From Rhynchosporium graminicola (Eukaryota; Ascomycota; Leotiomycetes; Helotiales; Ploettnerulaceae): a stretch of 64,000 nt of DNA. The notes below the pieces were generated by a model, which saw only the letters and a list, made by a program, of their open reading frames with translations, was not told the DNA's origin and did not search any database. The stretch is from positions 1 to 64,000 of the forward strand of contig FJUW01000029.1 in assembly GCA_900074885.1 (NCBI GenBank), given 5' to 3'. The position numbers and the translations under genes were made by a program. Positions 9,287 to 44,626 of this stretch are shown here, piece after piece (positions within the stretch are counted from its first letter, which is position 1; every line of letters begins with the position of its first letter).

Positions 9287-9450
9287 TCTCTCTCTCCTCC
9301 TTTAGTTCCTTAGTAGCTATCTCCTCCTCCTCCTCCTCCTTAGTAGCCTTCTCCTCCTCCTCCTCCTCCTCCTTAGTAGCCTTCTCCTCCTTAGTAGCTA
9401 TCTCCTCCTTAGTAGCTTCCTCCTCCTCTAGCTCCTCCTCCTCTACTTCT
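9287..9450. repeat. TCC/CTCC-rich low-complexity tract
   Basis: Runs of TCC interspersed with TTAGTAGC. On the element's sense (minus) strand this is a GAG/GAA-rich stretch encoding a poly-Glu, coiled-coil-like segment in the gag region of the nested Copia element. Confidence 0.8.
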
Positions 9451-12001: not shown

Positions 12002-14298
12002 GTAAAAAGAGAGAAAGAAAGATATAATTAGTTAAGTGAAGAGATTTTTAGAGGAGTAATAAATAGATATTTAGAGTTTATTCGAATAATTAGGCGTTAT
12101 TATTTACTATTACTTCTAGAACTTCAGACCTACTCTAAACTCTATATCTCTAGACTACTCTACTTTATAGTGAAACTAAGAGAAGACTCCTATCGGCCTA
12201 AAAGAGTCGAACTAGTATAGAACTACTTTATAAGAGCTATATTCTTCGTCTGAATAGTAACCCTTTTACTTTAAATATAATATATATTAGAAACTATTTT
12301 TCTATTAATAAAATATACTATAAATAAAAGGAAAGAGTAATACCTTTAAAGAAAAAAACTAGAAAGGCTTCGGTAGCTTCTTAAAGAGTTTTAATAGCAG
12401 AAGACTAAAATCTTAAGTCTAACTTGAAATCTTAAGTAACCTTACGAACTAGGCGTTAGAATTAAAGCTTTCTAAGGAGGAAGTTATAGCTTTTCTGAAA
12501 TAGCTTAATTTATCGTAATACTTTTACTATTTATAGTTATTTATATTACTATTAAGTATTACTATTAGAATCCTGAGTACTTACTACTAGATAGTAGCTT
12601 CCGGACTATTAAACTAGGCTTCGTAATACTATAAGCTCCTGTCTTCTTAGGATTAGCCTTATATACTTATTTACGCTTATCCTAAGTAGTAATTTTTTCA
12701 GCGGGAGTAAGCTTCATAGGTAAAGTGAATTTTCTAGTACTCTTCTTTTTAGGAGAAGATACTAACGTAGCTATATTCTTAGTTTTTTTTTATAGTAGCT
12801 TTAGAGCGTGCTATCTTAACTATAAGCCTTTATTAGTATTAGTACTATTACTATTAGGTATTACTATATAGGGTATAACTTACTAAGAGGAGGTTATAGG
12901 AGTATCTAGTTTTTAGAAGTTTAGAATTTCCTAGCCGAGAGGCTATTTATATATTTATAAATAATAATAACTTATTAACGTAAATACTAAGTAAATAAAC
13001 AAAAGAAGGTATATAGAGTGAATATAAGCGAGTTACTTAAATATAAATCTATCGCAGGTACGCTTTTACTTTTAAAATAAATAACTACTTTTCTTACCGG
13101 ACTAAAATAACTTTTTCTTCTACTAAACTAAAACTAGTAAGTGACCTTTCTCCTCCTATATCTATTTAGTTCTAATAGTAATATAATATAGTAATAGACT
13201 ATAGTTACTATTCCCTTTAAATAAATAAAACACCTATTTTTATACTAACTTTCGATAAGCGCTAAGATACTATTAAGGCAGATACCTAACTTTAGATTAA
13301 GGTAGCTAAGAATACTAAGAGATAGGTAAGTAACTATCTTTATTACTATTCGTAGCTTCTCTAATATTTCTTTAGGCCTTATATCGTGCTTATATTAATA
13401 TAAAGAAATAGAAGGGTTTCAAAGACCTTCTAGATAAGGAGAAAGAGAGCTTATAGAATAAGGCTAAGGCTAGAGTTCTAGCTAAGAGGGCTAAAGCCAG
13501 TAAGAAGTATAATAATTTAGTTATAAGGTACTTAGATATTAAGAATAAGTAGTTAGAGTTAGTTCTTAAGGAGGAGAAAACTATAAGAAAGAAAGTACTA
13601 AGAGTTAGAAATAGAGTAAGTTCTATTACTATTACTTATTACTATCTATTCTAATTATAACTTAGCGGAAGAGAAAAGCTAGAGAGCTTAAAGAAGATAA
13701 TAATAATAATAATAATAAATTAGCTTCTAGTATTAGAGGTTTCTTTAAGAAAAACTTAGAGCTTCTAATTAAGAGATTAGAAGTAAAGATTAACAAGGAG
13801 AGTAGTAAGAAATATTGAGTTAAGAAGAAGGAGATAGATACTTTTATAAAAGATATTACTAATCCTAAGGCTATTAAGGAATTTTATACTAGAGATAAGG
13901 AGATTAAGGTTAAAGAAGATAACTATAATAGTAATAATATTCTAGTTGAAGTCTCTACTAATAAAGAAGAAGAAGATAATAAAGAGGAGTTCTCTAAGTA
14001 GGAGGGATTTATTATTATAGATAAAGAGGATAAAGAAGATATAGATTAAGAGGAATAAGTTCTTTACTTCTTTTATTATTATAATACTCTTAATTGAACT
14101 TCTTTGAAAAACTAAATTACTCCTTATTACTATCTGCTATTACTATATAATCTGAAAAGTCCCTGATTTAAAAACGTAGTTGTTTTTATTAATAGTTATT
14201 AATATTCTAGTATTCCTAGGTTTTAGTATTCCTGGGTTTTCCCTATGAAAAAAAGTCTAATTGCAAGTTGAGATATGTATTCACTAAAACCCGCTATA
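12002..14298 (-). mobile_element. IS3EU-like DNA transposon, truncated copy B
   Basis: Corresponds to 38,868 to about 41,150 of the full-length copy, in opposite orientation. Shared pieces are the inverted-repeat end (finishing CCCGCTATA at 14,298), the lysine-rich ORF remnant with its introns (about 13,250-14,050, plus strand) and the small basic ORF remnant (about 12,600-12,815, minus strand). The transposase half is missing, and the left edge at about 12,000 meets the Copia nest, which probably truncated it. Differences between copies are mostly transitions. The inverted repeat here carries a short internal duplication (14,212-14,245). The orientation is given as opposite to the transposase of the full copy. 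Confidence 0.8.
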
Positions 14299-16421
14299 CC
14301 CTCCCCCTAAACTCTCGGCTAGGCGAAGTCTGGGCGAAAGTCCCCCACACCCGCAACGTCCAGTTCAACAGTATTCATAAATCTAATGCAAAAGCTACCC
14401 CCCCGAAACGAGTATCTCGTGATATGCACAAGTGGCATAACTCGTGATCACATGGGCCACCAGGCCACGATACGAAAAGTTTAGGTTTCGGGAGGCTGTT
14501 TCCGGATCCCCTACAACCAAGCTGTCGGTACTCGGTACCTAGGTAGGTAGATAGATAGCCGTAACCATAGGGCCCACACTCCAGCTCGCTTCTCTTCCGA
14601 GGTGATTAACAAGTTGTATGTGAGGGGTAGGTAGTAGGGAGAGCTTCCGAGGGAAATTGTACGCAATCACGATGTTATGCTTGCCGTAGTAGACAGATAT
14701 CTCGCATCTTGAGAGTTGTAAGATGGAGCAGAGATATGACTGTATCGACGATACCTTTCACCCAGGACTAACTATGCCGCCTGAAGTCGCACGGCATAAC
14801 GAGACCAAAGCTCTCCTCGATCTCTTTAGGAGGCCTTGATATAACAGCTACACATCTTCATTCCCCAACAGTTCAAAAGGCACAATCTGTGAAGAGGTCA
14901 TGAATTCCCCGTCCAATTAAGACTGCAGGACTACTGATCGTCCCTTGAAGAGCTCCCAGCGAGGACAAATACAGCGAAGACCCATCAAAGATTTACTTGA
15001 ATTCGTTGATTACGTCCGATCTTGGATTAGATACTAGTTTCTAGTTACCGTGTTACTTTCCTCGATATTTGTTTCTCGTTCATCGATCACGTTTCCTCGG
15101 ACGACATTGTTCTTCGCGTCGTAACAGGTCTTCAATCAATCTCGATGAAAATCTAAGTCGGAAATGGCCATGAGTGTTCGACGAGAGCTTTCGACCGGTA
15201 TACTTGACAGAGACAGCGCACAATCCGTGGTAGGATAGCAACGCAGCTTCTTGGTCTCCTCTGTACAGATCTTCTTTTCACTCTATATCCGACGCCGAGA
15301 GCTTAAATCAAACAGCTTCATCTCATACAAGCTCACCAGCGCCTCGCAGGCAAAGCAAGGTAATCATTCCAACAATTGAACCCGAATCATGCGCAAGCCG
15401 GTGATCTCTATGCCCTCGGTCTCGAAAATGCAATTCGATATCTCACAAGTAGCATGATGACGGTACTTCCTCTTCTTCCAAAGAATCCACAAAGCTAAAC
15501 AATGACTGCGTCAGTTCAAGAAGTAAATTGAAGAGGGTACGTGCAGAGGAAAGGATTTCCAAAGCTCTCAAGCTTTCAAGTCTGCGTAGACTCTCTTGCA
15601 GAATATCCCATCTTGACATGCACCAGCGCCACTTGGTATCTCCAGGAATCATCTTAGGCTCAAGAGTTCCCACGTTTACACAAATTCACTTGAGACTCGT
15701 ACATAAACCCTCAACCGCCACAGAGGCTCTATCAGCAACCGCCATCCAGCGACGAGATTTCCGCTGCGTCTCGCAGCCCTAAGTAGAGAAGAAGAGATGA
15801 ACAGTAAAATATGAGAGAACACTCAAGGAACGTCGACGAACTTTTTAAGAATTAAATGAAGTTTATCCATTATACCAGAAAAAATTAAAAATTACATCAT
15901 ACGTTAAGATTTAGCCAGAGCATATCACATAGCAATTTCCGTTTCCATCTACAGCTGGGTACACGATCACTTCGCACGCTGATTCCGGTTACTCAAGGCT
16001 TGTCTCTATGCACTTTTTATTGTTTGGTGTTCCGAGAAGAAGAAGAAGAAGTTTGATGCAACTTAGCGAGCGCGAACTTCTGATCTGGAGGTTCCTCCAT
16101 CGGCAAAGCCGAGAGCGCCAGGGTCTCGAGAGTCCGAATGACACGGATCGGACACCTACGATTTGGAGATTGCAAGATGAGATTGAGATATCCTCTGAGT
16201 GCTTGACCGACAGATCGTGAAGAAGGCTTATTTCGTTCAAAGAACCCCTTCTTCCAAGCAAAGCCAGAGTAGCCGAGATCAAAGGATCACACTTGATTTC
16301 TCCGACTTACAGCCCCAATGCCTCATTCACACACTTCACGAATTAACTCAAAGAAACAGTTTACTCCACCCCATCACTCCCAAGACTCCTCAAAAAGACA
16401 GCAGCAACTCCCCACACATCC
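14299..16421. other. Intergenic, no supported gene
   Basis: Base composition turns from RIP-type to normal at 14,298. Short ORFs at 15,443-15,673 (minus) and 16,008-16,220 (plus) have no recognisable domain, splice context or start context. The 15.4-15.8 kb minus-strand translation (WRWCMSRWDILQESLRRLES) faintly recalls helical N-terminal domains of fungal HET/NACHT proteins; this is too weak to call. Confidence 0.5.
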
Positions 16422-38689: not shown

Positions 38690-38867
38690 GCCATCGAAAT
38701 AGTGGCGGGGGGTATCTGTGGTTCGGATTGCATGGATATGGGTAAGTGTGCTTACATATGGACAACTTGACAAGTAGGTGGAAGAAGAGGGGCTGATAGA
38801 TAGATAGATAGAATAGATGTGATACCGCGCAAGATTTTCGATAAGCAAGGTTTCAAACTAGCACCTG
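37906..38867. other. Gene-free interval with microsatellites
   Basis: 3' region of the M3 peptidase gene up to the transposon. It contains GTAG/GTAT repeats (about 38,514-38,541), a TGAT run (38,656-38,687) and a short GATA run (about 38,797-38,812). It ends in the 6-bp target duplication CACCTG (38,862-38,867). Confidence 0.6.
38656..38687. repeat. (TGAT)n microsatellite
   Basis: About eight perfect TGAT/GATT units. Confidence 0.9.
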
Positions 38868-38950
38868 TATAGCGGTAGATAATAAGTGGATATCTCATCT
38901 GAGATTTTAGCGTTTTTTTACAGGAAAAACCCAAGAACACTAGAATATTC
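38868..38950 (+). repeat. Left terminal inverted repeat
   Basis: Pairs with 44,538-44,620; about eight mismatches in 83 bp, all C/T or G/A transitions. It contains the dyad ATCTCATCTGAGAT. Confidence 0.9.
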
Positions 38951-39079
38951 AGTTACTAAGTAAATATTAATAGAATCAACTACTTTTTTGAATTATTTAC
39001 TTTTTAGATCATATAGTAATAGTAAATAGTAATACAGAATAATTTAGTCTTTTATAAAAGTTCAATTAAGAGGATTATA

Positions 39080-39930
39080 GTAGAGGAAGAGAAGTAGTAA
39101 ATCTACTCCTTATTATTATCTCTATCTAGAATAATAAATCCCTCCTACTTAGAGAACTCTTCTTTATTATCCTTATTATCTTCTTCTTTATTAGTAGAGA
39201 CTTTAATAATAATATTATTACTATTATAGTTATCTTCTTTAACCTTAATCTCCTTATCTCTAGTATAAAAGTCCTTAATAGCCTTAAGATTAGTAACTTC
39301 TCTTATAAAAGCTACTATCTCCTTCTTACTAACTCTATACTTCTTATTACTCTCCTTAATAATCTTTACTTCTAATCTTATAATCAGAAGCTCTAAGTTC
39401 TTCTTAAAGGAACCTCTAATACTAGAAGTTAACTTATTATTATTATCTTCTTTAAGCTCTCTAGCTTTTCTCTTCCGCTAAATTATAGTTAGAATAGATA
39501 ATAATAAGTAATAGTAATAGGACTTACTTCAGAATTAACTCCTAGTGCTTTCTTTTTTATAGCTTTCTCCTCCTTAAGAACTAACTCTAATTACTTATTC
39601 TTAATATCTAGGAACCTAGTAACTAAATTATTAAACTTCTTACTAGCTTTAGCTCTCTTAGCTAGAACTCTAGCTTTAGCCTTATCTTTTAAGCTCTTCT
39701 TTCCCTTATCTAAAAGGTCTTTATAGCCCTCCTGCTTCTTTATAGTACTACGAGTATAGTATAAGGCCTAAAGAAATATTAGAAAAGCTCTAAATAATAA
39801 GAAAGATATAAAAGTACTTACTTATCTCTTAGTATTACTAGCTACCTTAATCTAGAGTTAGATATCTGCCTTAATAGTATCTCGGCGCTCGTCGAAAGTT
39901 AGTATAATAATTAGTATTTTATTTATTTAA
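39080..39930 (-). pseudogene. Lysine-rich coiled-coil ORF remnant of the transposon
   Basis: The minus-strand translation begins near TFDERRDTIKADI and continues with a Lys/Ala-rich helical segment (KAKARVLAKRAKASKKFNNL). At least two introns are recognisable: complement of about 39,775-39,825 (GTAAGT...TTTAG) and of about 39,480-39,530 (GTAAGTCC...CTAAC...TTTAG). The same exon and intron order occurs on the plus strand of copy B (about 13,250-14,050). Stops come from RIP. No domain recognised; possibly a transposon-encoded accessory or DNA-binding protein. Confidence 0.6.
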
Positions 39931-40341
39931 GAGGAATTGTAATTATAGACTATTACTATACTATATTACTATTAGGGCTATATAGATATAGGAGGAGAAA
40001 GGTATAGAACTTACTAGTTTTAGTTCTAGTAGGAAAAGTAGTTATTTATTTTAAAATAGAGACGCACCTCCTATATATTTATATCCCTAAAACTCAGTTA
40101 ATATTCACTAGCTCCTTTTTCTTTACTATCTAGTAACTTCTTCCTTCCTTCTTTTATTTATTTACTTATAGTTTACTTTAATAAGTTATTAGTATTTACT
40201 AATATATAAATAGACTCTTAGCTAGGAGTTTCTAAACTTCTAAAATCCATATAATACTATAACTACTATTCGGTAAGTTATACTCTATATAGTAATATAA
40301 AATAGTAATAATAATAATACTAATATAAGCTTATAGTTAAG

Positions 40342-40590
40342 ATAGCACGCTCTAAAGCTATAGTAAAGAAACCTAAGAAAGCTACTACTTTAGCACTTTC
40401 TCCTAAGAAGAAGAGTACTTCTAAATTTACTCTATCCCGGAAGCTAACCCTAGCTAAAAGATTAGCTACTTAGGATAAGCGAAGATAAGTATATAAAGGT
40501 AATACTAAGAAAGAAAGTCCTTATCCTATTAAGAGACCTAGTAATAGAGTCCGTAAGTTACTATCTAGTAGTAAGTACTTAGTCTTCTAA
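40342..40590 (+). pseudogene. Small basic ORF remnant of the transposon
   Basis: Begins at an ATA that is probably a mutated ATG and reads ARSKAIVKKPKKATTLA, then SPKKKSTSKFTLSRKL, then RKLLSSSKYL before the end; about 83 codons with a few RIP stops. Copy B encodes the same small protein on its minus strand (about 12,815 down to 12,600), with conservation of amino acids around SPKKKST and VRKLLSSSKY. Lys/Ser-rich and probably DNA-binding or nuclear; no family recognised. Confidence 0.6.
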
Positions 40591-41469
40591 TAGTAATACT
40601 TAATAGTAATATAACTAACTCTTAATAGTAAAAGTATTATAAGAAACTAGGAAGTTTCAGAAGAGTTTTAATCTACTTATCTAAAAGCTCCCTTTCTAAC
40701 GCCTAGTTCGTAAGGTTACTTAAGATTTCAAGTCTGACTTAAGATTCTAAGCTTCTACTATCACTACTCTTTAAGAAGCTACCGAAGCTTTTTTAGTATC
40801 TTTCTTTAAAGGTAATATTAATCTCTATCTATTTATAGTATATTTTACTAATAAAAAAGATAGCTTCTAATATATATTATATTTATAGAAAGTAAGTTAT
40901 TATTTAAAAAAAGGATATAACTCTAGTTAAGTAGTTCTATACTAGTTCTATTCTTATAGGATAGATAGAGTCTTATCTCGATTATATTATATAATACTAT
41001 AATCTAAGGGGGGAGAGTAGAATTTAGAGTAAGTCTAGAGTTCTAAGAGTAATAATATATAGTAACGCTTTATTATTAGAATAAACTTTAAATTACTTTT
41101 TACTACTTTACTAAAAATTTCTTTAACTAACTAAATATAACTTACCTCTTTCTCTATTTTCAAAATCCTTAACTAATATAAATATACTATCTTTAAACTC
41201 CTAAGAAGTATAAGAATAATATAAAGAAGAGATCTATAACTTGTATTTTACTTATAAACTTCCTTTACTAGAACTAAGAAGAATTATATTAGAGAAAGGA
41301 TTAACTACCTCGTAAGTCTATTCTAATAATCTAAGATTTTTATACTAATATAAAAGATAAAAAAGTAACTTTCTATAGAAAGCTAAAGCTTTAGAGAGAT
41401 ACTCCTTAAAAGCTAAATAAATACTTAGTAAATAAGAGACTTTTAAATAAGGTTTCTTAATTATATAAT

Positions 41470-42850
41470 AATAATATAAAGCATAAGAATATACTCTATT
41501 ACTTGGTGGAATTTAAGAGGTTCCCTAAGCTATAAGACTAGTAACTTCGACGGATCCGCGCCTACTTCTACCTCTCTTATAGGAATAAAGCTCTAGAAGT
41601 TATACTAGAGCTTTTATAGTATACTTCTCATATTATACTTTATAATATGAAGAATACTCTTCGTATATAATTAGAGTACTAAAAAGTTACTACCTATTTA
41701 AGAGTTTATTACTAAATAACTCTACTAAAGTATACTATACGGGATCTACTTCTCAAACTAGATCTTATTACTATATAAGTAAGGTCACTTAATACTCTAA
41801 AGCTCTATCGAAAGTTTATAGTTAAAAGTCCAAATAGAATTTAGTCTATTAATAAGTATAATAAACTCTCTCGCTTTAGCTTTCAGATCTATAGTATTAT
41901 AGATAGTTATAGTCGCTGTATCCTTAGCTTCTTTATTAGTTTTTCTAATAGAACTCAAATTATAATTAGTAGATTCTATCTCTATATAGTAAAAGAGTTT
42001 AAGTTTCTAAAAGCTATATATATAGATAAGAGGAAAGAGACTAAGTTATTAGAAGCTATATAATTCCGATTTAGATAAGAGGAAAAGCCTAATATTACTA
42101 TTACTAAAGCACTAGCTTTTAGTATATTAATAAGAAACCAGAGAATTAAGAGGTTCTAGAGGACTCTAATTAATTAGTTTATAAATTAGTAGATAGAGTA
42201 CTTTAGGGATTTAGAGAAGAGAAATCTATTTAATAAGTCTAAATATAATATAATAGTATTATAGTTCTTATATATAAAGTAATTAAGAAGGTTATTTCGA
42301 TAAATAATTACTATTTATAATAAAACACTAATCCGGAAGCAAAAGTCTCGAGAGGACTATCTATTATCTAGCCGATCTCTTATAGAACTCTATTTATACC
42401 CTAAATAGAGTACAAAAAACTATACCTAGCTAGCTAATCTATATCTCTTAAAAGAGTTTAAGAAGAAGTTCAAATAATATAATAATTAGGGGTTTTTAAC
42501 TCCTAAGGTATAAGAGATATATAAAGAAGTAGTTCAGAGTTATAGTATTAAGTATAATTTGAAGAATCTTACTCCTAGTCCAGATTAGCTTTATAAGTAA
42601 GTCTATATACTCTTAAGAGAAGAGCTTTATATTTAGGAACTTACTAGAGAAGTTATTAAACTAAAAAAGAGATATTTAAGAGGAGTTCAGATATTAAAGG
42701 TAATAGGGGTAGAGTTTATTACTACTAGAATTAAAATTCCAGTAGGTTAATATAATACCCTAGTAAACTTAGCTAGTAAGAAGGACTTTAAAAGAGAGAG
42801 TAGTTCAGATAATAAAAGTAATAGAGATACTAGAGATAAGCTCTAAATTA
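41470..42850 (+). pseudogene. Integrase-like (rve-type DDE) transposase remnant
   Basis: One plus-strand frame, broken by about fifteen RIP stops, carries the hallmark of the integrase-core proteins common in fungal genomes. Near 41,860-41,955 it reads KLSRFSFQIYSIIDSYSRC followed by a NRT block; the Asp in IIDSYSRC is a likely catalytic Asp. Near 42,110-42,300 is the R-NQRI...QRTLINQFINQ block and a LEKRNLF stretch typical of the C-terminal half. This is the transposase that would recognise the inverted repeats. Non-functional as it stands. Confidence 0.72.
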
Positions 42851-43049
42851 TATTTCTGAAGTTACTATATTACTATCTACTATTATTATTAAAAAGTCTT
42901 CTTTATTAAAAAGTTTTTTATTTAATTTTCTATTTACTATTTTTTTTTTCTATTTAATAACTTCTTATTAACTAATATATTACTATCTAGTATTACTATT
43001 AAAGATATACTAAATAAAATAAATAAAATAAACTATATAATAAAACTTA

Positions 43050-43450
43050 TTCCTTTAACTTCGCTAGCGTCTTAATAGTTCTCTCTAAACTTCTCCTTAT
43101 AGTAACTCTAGTAGAAACTAATACTAGATCAGAAAAGTCTAAGTCTAAGCTACTATTATCTTCTTCTTCTATTAAACCTATATCCTAATCTTCTTTAGCT
43201 TCTATATCTTTAATTTATATCTCCTTCTTATCCTTAATATCTTTAGTCTAGATCTCTTTCTTTATAGCTTTCTCTATCTTAACTATTACTTTCTTTATTA
43301 CTTCTAACTTTACTCTAGTAGGAACTCTTTTTACTACTATAGCTTATAAACTTACTTTCTATCTCCTTTTCTCCCTAGGCTCTATATTTAGTATTAACCC
43401 TTCTCTCTTATACCCCTTTTTCTTCTTATTCCCCTTTTTAACTTTCTCTT
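43050..43450 (-). pseudogene. Charged ORF remnant of the transposon
   Basis: The minus-strand translation is rich in Lys, Glu and Asp (IEEEDNSSLDLDFSDLVLVS near its end), with short stretches open between RIP stops. It has no recognised domain and is absent from the truncated copy B, which lacks this half. Confidence 0.4.
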
Positions 43451-44537
43451 TCTGCAGAATTATAATATAAATAGAAAGAGGAGGCTATTTACTAGCCTTT
43501 ACTAGTTAAGTATTAATAATATATTAGAGTATAATACTCTTGCTAAAAATATCTTCCTAGGTAAGTAGACTATCTTCCTATATCTTAATATAGTACTCCC
43601 GAGTACTATCTAAGATAAGCTCCTTACTAATAATATCTTTATAATCTCTTATAAATAGAATCTTCTTTTTCTCTAGAGCTTAGCGAATAAATATATTAAT
43701 AGACTAAGAGATAGGGAAAAGTATTAATAGATCTAGATCGACTTTAAGGATTACTAATAAGTATTAGTTTTACTAGAGGTACTTCGATAAAGTAGACTAA
43801 GATTAGAGTCTTTCTAATAGCGTTCCTTAGGTTAATACTAAATATCCCCTTAACTTTCTCTTAGTCTTTTACCTCCCTATTATAGATATCTACTTTATCT
43901 TGATAAAGTTACACTTTATTAATTAGAAAAAGCTCTCGCTTAATAACTATAGGGTAAGATTTATCTTTAATAATAGAGATCTCCTAATCCCTTTTATCTT
44001 TATTATTAGTATATCGCTAGTGTTCTATCTTCTTAGGAGATTTTAGCTTTCTTAGCGATCTCCTCCTTTCGGTATATCTATTAAAGTAGTAGTTATCGCT
44101 AGATAATTAAAGTCTAGTAGAGTATAAGCTATTATAATACTTAAGGTTAAGTATATTAAGTTAGCTTTAAGTTATTAGAAGAATAATTAGGAAAGATTCT
44201 AAGAGTAAAATAGAGACTTTATATATTACTATTAGGTATTACTATATATAGCTCTATCTACTAGAAAATTTATACTTTAGACTTTCCTAGAATTAAGTTT
44301 CTAAAGTAGAGGAATAAAGATTATAAGGCTTTATTATTACTAGAAGGTATTACTATATACTACTACGTAGATATATGCTTTATAGAGTTAAGTTAAAGTA
44401 GTAGTAAAGGAAACTCGTCTTCGACTATTACTTTAACTTTTTATATCTTTCTAAAATATCAATATCTATTATCTAGGATATCTATAAGGTATATATCTAA
44501 AAATTATAGTTATTTATATTAGTAGTTATTAATAATT

Positions 44538-44620
44538 AAATATTCTAGTGTTCCTAGGTTTTTCCTATGAAAAAACGCTAAAATCTCAGATGAGATACCC
44601 ACTCGTTATCTACCGCTATA
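44538..44620 (-). repeat. Right terminal inverted repeat
   Basis: Reverse complement of 38,868-38,950. It ends ACCGCTATA and is followed by CACCTG (44,621-44,626), the second copy of the target duplication. Confidence 0.9.
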
Positions 44621-44626
44621 CACCTG

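Follow-up and report, generated by a model that had tools for sequence, protein, structure and literature searches.

A RIP-killed transposon of probable IS3EU type with a histone H3 variant gene in Rhynchosporium graminicola

Chromatin genes on transposons show how genomes silence such elements and how the elements answer. Whether such elements bring their own packaging to escape silencing is a question raised by a stretch of 64,000 nucleotides from Rhynchosporium graminicola (assembly GCA_900074885.1, contig FJUW01000029.1, positions 1 to 64,000; hereafter the window), in which a complete transposon of 5753 bp (38868-44620) lies between exact copies of CACCTG and holds the remnants of an integrase and of a histone H3 gene. 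We conclude that the element is very probably a member, killed by repeat-induced point mutation (RIP), of an IS3EU-type cut-and-paste family that has a histone H3 variant among its genes. TET/JBP genes in IS3EU elements and H3 genes in hAT elements were known separately before.

Ends, copies and RIP damage of the element

The inverted repeats extended to 104 nt including the duplications, with 88% complementarity in the repeat search, and the terminal inverted repeats (TIRs) themselves, at about 93 bp, were longer than 30 bp with arms 88-89% alike. The window's own assembly (55.3 Mb, 121 contigs) was searched with the left repeat, which returned at least 20 end sequences, and with the right repeat, which returned the identical 20; this count is a lower bound because all 20 first-look candidates scored with both queries. 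Given matching ends elsewhere in the genome, the inverted repeats are not a product of chance. Eighteen of the 20 ends formed nine convergent (head-to-head) pairs, and the loci C71 and C90 held a single end each. Comparison of the flanks at lengths of 4-9 revealed a 6-bp target duplication in all nine pairs, exact in six (C23, C33, C60, C25, C68, C46), exact at C96 if one extra T at the left end is assigned to the element, and with one transition each at C48 and C56. All 20 ends read TATRG (TATGG, n = 11; TATAG, n = 9), TATAG being as expected from RIP of TATGG. On the inner side of the TIR (e.g., window 38945-38975 and 44510-44540), one end type read approximately GTTACTAAGTAAATAT and the other ATTATTAATAACTACT; the two ends of an element can therefore be told apart.

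A preliminary description of this DNA had proposed a full-length TIR transposon with CACCTG on both sides and a 6-bp duplication, and the flanks and the nine pairs bear this out. Copies with another duplication length, which it had named as evidence against its reading, did not appear. Its inverted repeats were present as well, the length of about 83 bp being too short and nearer 93 bp. It had also judged the element well enough preserved to define its ends, insertion site and gene content; ends and insertion site were indeed definable, and the gene content was understated, the H3 gene having been missed and the open stretches on the minus strand not mentioned.

Paired ends were spaced 3.5 to 47 kb apart. 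Nine loci were compared with each other by blastn, covering all family-A loci (the window element's own family) except the interiors of C46 and C71. The 5.75-kb core of the window element recurs with 93-96% identity at C56, C60 and C68, where other repeats divide it, and C90 retains one half of the core element. The remaining loci C25, C33, C48 and C96 are internally deleted, with about 0.9 kb left from both ends and other repeats inside, and are a non-autonomous sub-family. The deletions at these four loci share similar break points. Among the loci compared inside (C46 and C71 not being among them), the window copy was the only uninterrupted full-length one.

Five of the nine end pairs with 6-bp duplications sit 17.6-47 kb apart, which is what a giant cargo-carrying transposon family of 17-47 kb would present. 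At four of these wide pairs (C56, C60, C68, C25), however, the element parts aligned at 93-96% with the 5.75-kb core or with the internally deleted version of it and were interrupted by other repeats; the fifth, C46, was not among the loci compared inside. With other repeats nested in the core according to blastn, the giant-element reading was dropped for these four pairs, and as an account of the family it is extremely improbable.

The composition of the element (26% GC, TpA/ApT 1.71, substitution index 0.14) differed from that of the two flanking stretches (48% or 46% GC, TpA/ApT 0.69-0.73, substitution index 1.22-1.25). Alignment of the window copy with C56 over 5146 columns gave 276 transitions, 14 transversions and 7 gap columns. 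The AT-rich composition and the excess of transitions are therefore the mark of RIP. Stop codons were present in every integrase and element-borne H3 match listed in the protein searches of the genome, the sole stop-free match in the H3 search being the host H3 gene. The window element is a dead, RIP-killed copy. It nevertheless provides a clean reference for ends, duplication and gene order in annotating the family in RIP-damaged genomes; without such a reference, its copies could be misannotated as giant elements or as an amplification of the host H3.

A histone H3 gene upstream of the integrase

The plus-strand integrase-type remnant named in the preliminary description is real, since the read-through of 41002-42865 (+) matched PF24764 (E 1.6e-13; 51.3 bits, with the cut-off at 26). 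PF24764 was found in all four aligned copies (best 1.3e-16), and PF00665 (rve) in two of the four (best E 0.19). At the columns where integrase motifs lead us to expect the first D and the E of the catalytic triad, each of the four aligned copies has N and K, the residues that RIP would produce. A PF24764 profile scan of the genome gave seven places above the cut-off, and a protein search gave twelve matches at nine loci that included all seven. These nine integrase loci comprise five of family A together with C82, C24, C28 and C58, whose integrases are 50-56% identical to that of the window (one outlying C28 piece, 42%). C82, C24, C28 and a second copy in the window were placed in a family B because their H3 and integrase matches are about equally far from family A; the family-B sequences compared in detail were C23B and C82, with C24 and C28 placed by search matches.

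A read-through of 40607-40999 (+) within the element matched the core histone family PF00125 (E 3e-17), and the spliced read-through peptide of the sister copy C56 did so with E 6e-28 over profile positions 6-118 of 122. Among the best 60 of 176 PDB matches to the element H3, all were named H3. Judging from its reading frame, from splice-like sites and from differences among copies, the gene would have three exons (Table 1). All seven exon-2 peptides compared (four from family A, two from family B and that of C58) scored 146-183 against the host H3 and 83-100 against the host CENP-A-like protein, and are thus closer to H3 than to CENP-A. A genome scan with PF00125 returned 16 matches, of which nine with several stops were the eight at integrase loci and a truncated one at 12.3 kb in the window, and six without stops lay at four loci (C72, the host H3; C119, the CENP-A-like protein; C64; C19); the sixteenth, at C107, had one stop.

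Table 1. Features of the window, with limits as read from frames, repeats and flanks
Feature	Position	Strand	Basis and remarks
Left target-site duplication CACCTG	38862..38867	.	Flank comparison
Left TIR, about 93 bp, starts TATAGCGG, end type A	38868..38960 (3' limit approximate)	+	89% match to other arm; 18 further ends elsewhere in the genome
Open reading frame 1 (ORF1) remnant, lysine- and glutamate-rich frames, probably two exons	39145..39760 (approximate)	-	Longest open piece 39145-39477, 110 amino acids
H3 exon 1 (tail)	40342..40552	+	First codon now ATA, then ARSK and about 69 further codons; limits predicted from frame and splice-like sites
H3 predicted intron 1, GTAAGT...TAATAG, 76 nt	40553..40628	+	Shared in position and phase with the diverged C58 copy
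H3 exon 2, alpha-N to alpha-2 of the histone fold ('KLPF.RLV', 'DFKSDLRF')	40629..40811	+	PF00125 E 3e-17; window copy 51.4 bits in genome scan
H3 predicted intron 2, 52 nt	40812..40863	+	Frame, splice-like sites and copy comparison
H3 exon 3 start, loop 2 and alpha-3	40864..40938 (3' limit uncertain)	+	Clearest in sister copies, '..KRVTI.KKD..'
Transposase remnant	41269..42846 (5' limit uncertain)	+	PF24764 integrase core at 41815-42354; many stop codons
ORF4 remnant, frames with an acidic stretch	43049..44050 (approximate)	-	No Pfam family above cut-off
Right TIR, end type B	about 44529..44620	-	Repeat search
Right target-site duplication CACCTG	44621..44626	.	Flank comparison
Truncated family-B relative	12005..14303	-	Outer TIR-like end at 14303; ORF1 and H3 in same order as element

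H3 lies upstream of the integrase and on the same strand at eight of the nine integrase loci, spanning three diverged groups (family A, family B and C58). The gap between the matched stretches was 658-690 bp at the six uninterrupted loci, and C60 and C68 were broken up by nested repeats. The sister elements C56, C60 and C68 carry the same H3 gene at other insertion sites. The window's second H3 (12321-12521, -) lies inside the truncated family-B copy, which had no integrase match and was 79% identical to the element over 2335 aligned columns. That H3 immediately precedes the integrase, in the same orientation and at a near-fixed distance, would also suit a histone fold serving the transposition machinery (dimerisation, DNA binding or insertion steering), perhaps fused to the integrase. 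Against this, by eye about 0.3 kb without a recognisable frame lies between the H3 exons and the frame of the integrase, and the profile match takes in almost all of the histone (6-118 of 122), as it would for an H3 that stands alone; a machinery role is improbable.

Both intron positions were common to family A, the family-B copies C23B and C82, and C58, with equal phase in family A and C58. The host H3 exon at C72, which reads like an ordinary fungal H3, is unbroken through both positions; four codons past the second it has a donor-like site of its own. With positions shared by the groups and missing in the host H3, a single acquisition probably preceded the split of the groups, and an origin by capture of the present host gene, introns included, is unlikely. 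Inspected by eye, predicted intron 1 (40553-40628) was nearly identical in its 3' half between family A and C58, although the adjoining exon had only 53% protein identity. In the truncated family-B copy the TIR was diverged (66% over the first 91 columns), although the interior is about 79% alike.

Place among fungal transposons

Features of IS3EU transposons found in the element were 6-bp duplications, TA..TA termini, TIRs longer than 30 bp and a DDE integrase-type transposase. The fungal IS3EU-type assignment, already put forward in the preliminary description, is supported by the duplications, the TATRG reading of all 20 ends, the long TIRs and PF24764, rather than by a transposase tree. 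In life, a DDE integrase would have bound the TIRs of about 93 bp, excised the element and joined it to target cuts staggered by 6 bp.

Two other groups were considered and rejected. Polinton/Maverick elements are 15-40 kb long and contain DNA polymerase B and capsid genes; the core here is 5.75 kb, and no matching Pfam family was found in the frames scanned. Ginger1 and Ginger2 elements have 4-5-bp duplications and a PF00665 integrase, as against the 6-bp duplications of this family and PF00665 matches in two of four aligned copies.

The termini and duplications of IS3EU in general have been described (PMC10045372), and passages of PMC12730594 give 6-bp target-site duplications, TAYGG..CCRTA ends and TIRs longer than 30 bp for fungal members. 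The same source describes IS3EU elements with TET/JBP and alpha-kinase genes in rusts and Tuber (Kojima, 2025, PMC12730594), the alpha-kinase gene of TET-carrying fungal elements being opposite to the transposase. These elements and that of the window are alike in 6-bp duplications, end motif, TIRs longer than 30 bp and a transposase with extra genes, one class of them chromatin-related (PMC12730594). They differ in that the former carry TET/JBP and an alpha-kinase, whereas the window element carries H3 and gave no Pfam match to either in the frames scanned. According to passages of PMC10853768, Styx of Zymoseptoria has an IS3EU-like integrase, 6-bp duplications and four coding sequences, all three shared with the window element; its TIR of 36 bp and length of 7.9 kb differ from the 93 bp (approximately) and 5.75 kb found here, and no histone gene is named in those passages. 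A 2012 meeting report by Kapitonov (PMC3520738) mentions 'Intons', IS3EU-derived fungal elements with five to six conserved proteins, none of them named in the passage concerned. Intons and the window element are both fungal, IS3EU-type and multi-protein, a likeness by description only, and a word search gave no further paper with both names from that passage (PMC3520738). With Styx, the TET-carrying IS3EU elements and the Intons note in print (PMC10853768, PMC12730594, PMC3520738), the statement in the preliminary description that the type is poorly described in fungi is partly right.

A histone cargo is itself known from hAT elements of Pyrenophora tritici-repentis (passages of PMC3538342) and of Pseudocercospora/Cercospora/Sphaerulina (passages of PMC6710886). 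These, like the window element, are fungal DNA transposons with a diverged H3-like gene between TIRs. All transposon copies of the Pseudocercospora H3-hAT are described as RIP-damaged (PMC6710886), like the window family, and the Pyrenophora H3L also has tail insertions (PMC3538342), like the H3 of the window element. Both, however, have a hAT transposase, and in Pseudocercospora the duplications measure 8 bp, the TIRs 20 bp, and the H3 copy is without introns (PMC6710886), whereas the window element has an integrase, 6-bp duplications and predicted introns. That the window element is itself a hAT element of the published H3-carrying kind, for which the same kind of cargo speaks, is hardly credible; the duplications are 6 bp and not 8 bp, and the frames scanned contained PF24764 instead of a hAT domain. 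Membership of hAT, with its 8-bp duplication and hAT/DUF659 transposase, was accordingly rejected. Among titles and abstract openings of the top matches in the open-licence literature, no report of a histone gene in an IS3EU-type element was found, which is not proof of absence.

Several results weigh against the IS3EU-type assignment. Two protein homologue searches with the read-through integrase (single sequence, 7991 candidates scored; four-copy alignment, 7993) gave no relative at E <= 0.001, and a PDB profile search with the integrase gave no relative. Neither an alpha-kinase nor TET was matched by Pfam in the read-through frames of either minus-strand stretch, where RIP damage could mask one. 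The examination of TIRs left out the integrase loci C82, C24, C28 and C58.

Possible roles of the H3 protein, and minor features

Whether the H3 protein mattered to the element was approached by shuffling the same differences between two copies to obtain an expected protein identity. In exon 2, C56 and C82 shared 42 of 59 residues against 33.2 after shuffling (P = 0.0006; transversions only, P = 0.013), and C56 and C23B shared 43 against 34.1 (P = 0.0004; transversions only, P = 0.031). The histone frame ranked best of six in both A-B controls. Families A and B can be aligned over half of the element, in nine ungapped blocks; of these, the H3 block gave the top coding signal, with z 3.1 and 2.7 for two plus-strand frames.

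Other results point away from a retained protein. One minus-strand frame was also significant in the A-B controls (P = 0.015 and 0.002). Between C56 and C58, exon 2 shared 31 of 59 residues against 22.1, with a minus-strand control frame equal to the histone frame, and comparisons of family B with C58 by transversions only gave P = 0.17 and 0.11. Transversion rates between families A and B were 0.04-0.08 in the H3 introns and 0.07-0.08 in exon 2, so that exon-specific constraint was not seen in these rates and protein constraint is not strong. At C90, a locus interrupted by nested repeats and by the contig end, there was no H3 match. Taken together, the sequence comparisons are moderate evidence that the H3 protein mattered to the element.

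These rates suit an H3 that is a passenger, a host gene captured by transduplication and of no benefit to the element: introns and exon 2 diverged at similar rates, the tail exon diverged fastest (0.129), and capture of H3 by hAT elements has been published for Pyrenophora and the Pseudocercospora clade. A passenger would nevertheless have to account for the same gene at the same place and strand at eight of nine integrase loci, where integrases from beyond family A share 50-56% identity with that of the window, for the intron positions common to the copies compared and for exon-2 protein identity between families A and B above expectation; capture from the present host gene with introns is unlikely, the positions being different. 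We regard a passenger as a real possibility, somewhat short of an even chance. The history in which the H3 gene was acquired before the groups split would probably have seen it retained as part of the element.

The tail bears on what a retained H3 might do. It opens with ARSK, where an ordinary H3 tail begins ARTK. In the five tails readable from their start (that of C23B read by skipping one inserted base), the ARKS motif was absent and lysines 4, 9, 23 and 27, numbered from the first alanine, were kept in all five. Residue 10 was P, L or T (N in C23B without skipping the inserted base). RIP could explain tail residues 7, 8 and 28, but not residue 10 of family A. By exon length, the predicted variant has about 25 residues more than ordinary H3 between this part of the tail and the fold. 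The tail and the C-terminal end of the element H3, taken alone, had no significant match in a local search of the best 120 of 2313 H3 homologues. The predicted variant thus appears to keep K4, K9 and K27 in register with changed neighbours and a different C-terminal end. With lysines 4, 9, 23 and 27 in place, the tail is altered and not stripped of silencing lysines, and the idea that the variant lacks the methylated lysines was dropped.

By analogy with the TET/JBP genes of fungal IS3EU elements, the most likely use of the H3 is, tentatively, as a variant or decoy that alters the element's chromatin or its silencing. The protein could be a decoy for silencing enzymes, or alternatively could build nucleosomes poorly bound by silencing readers. 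The broader proposal, a long-lived fungal IS3EU-type lineage with its own H3 variant as a core gene that controls its own chromatin, is unlikely on our estimate; the kept lysines count against it, and we lowered that estimate slightly because K4, K9, K23 and K27 are kept and the neighbour changes are partly RIP-like. An H3 fixed at one place in three diverged groups of IS3EU-type elements would add another, apparently independent, case of this histone on a fungal DNA transposon. It makes transposon-borne histones as counter-defence a testable idea; if true, H3 would, with the hAT captures, be a recurrent counter-defence gene of fungal transposons.

The minus-strand remnants flank the two plus-strand genes (Table 1). 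For ORF1, no Pfam family exceeded the cut-off in three frames, the family-B copy gave weak matches only, and a frame test gave no clear protein-level signal. Elsewhere in the genome, a core-histone-like match with one stop lies at C107:256963-257178 (+), on a contig without an integrase match. In the CENP-A-like host frame at C119:107190-107680, 18 residues between 'KLPFSRL' and 'VREIA' align to a gap in H3 and are perhaps an unspliced intron. A CTCCTC-rich simple repeat occupies 9300-9450, in the AT-rich left part of the window.

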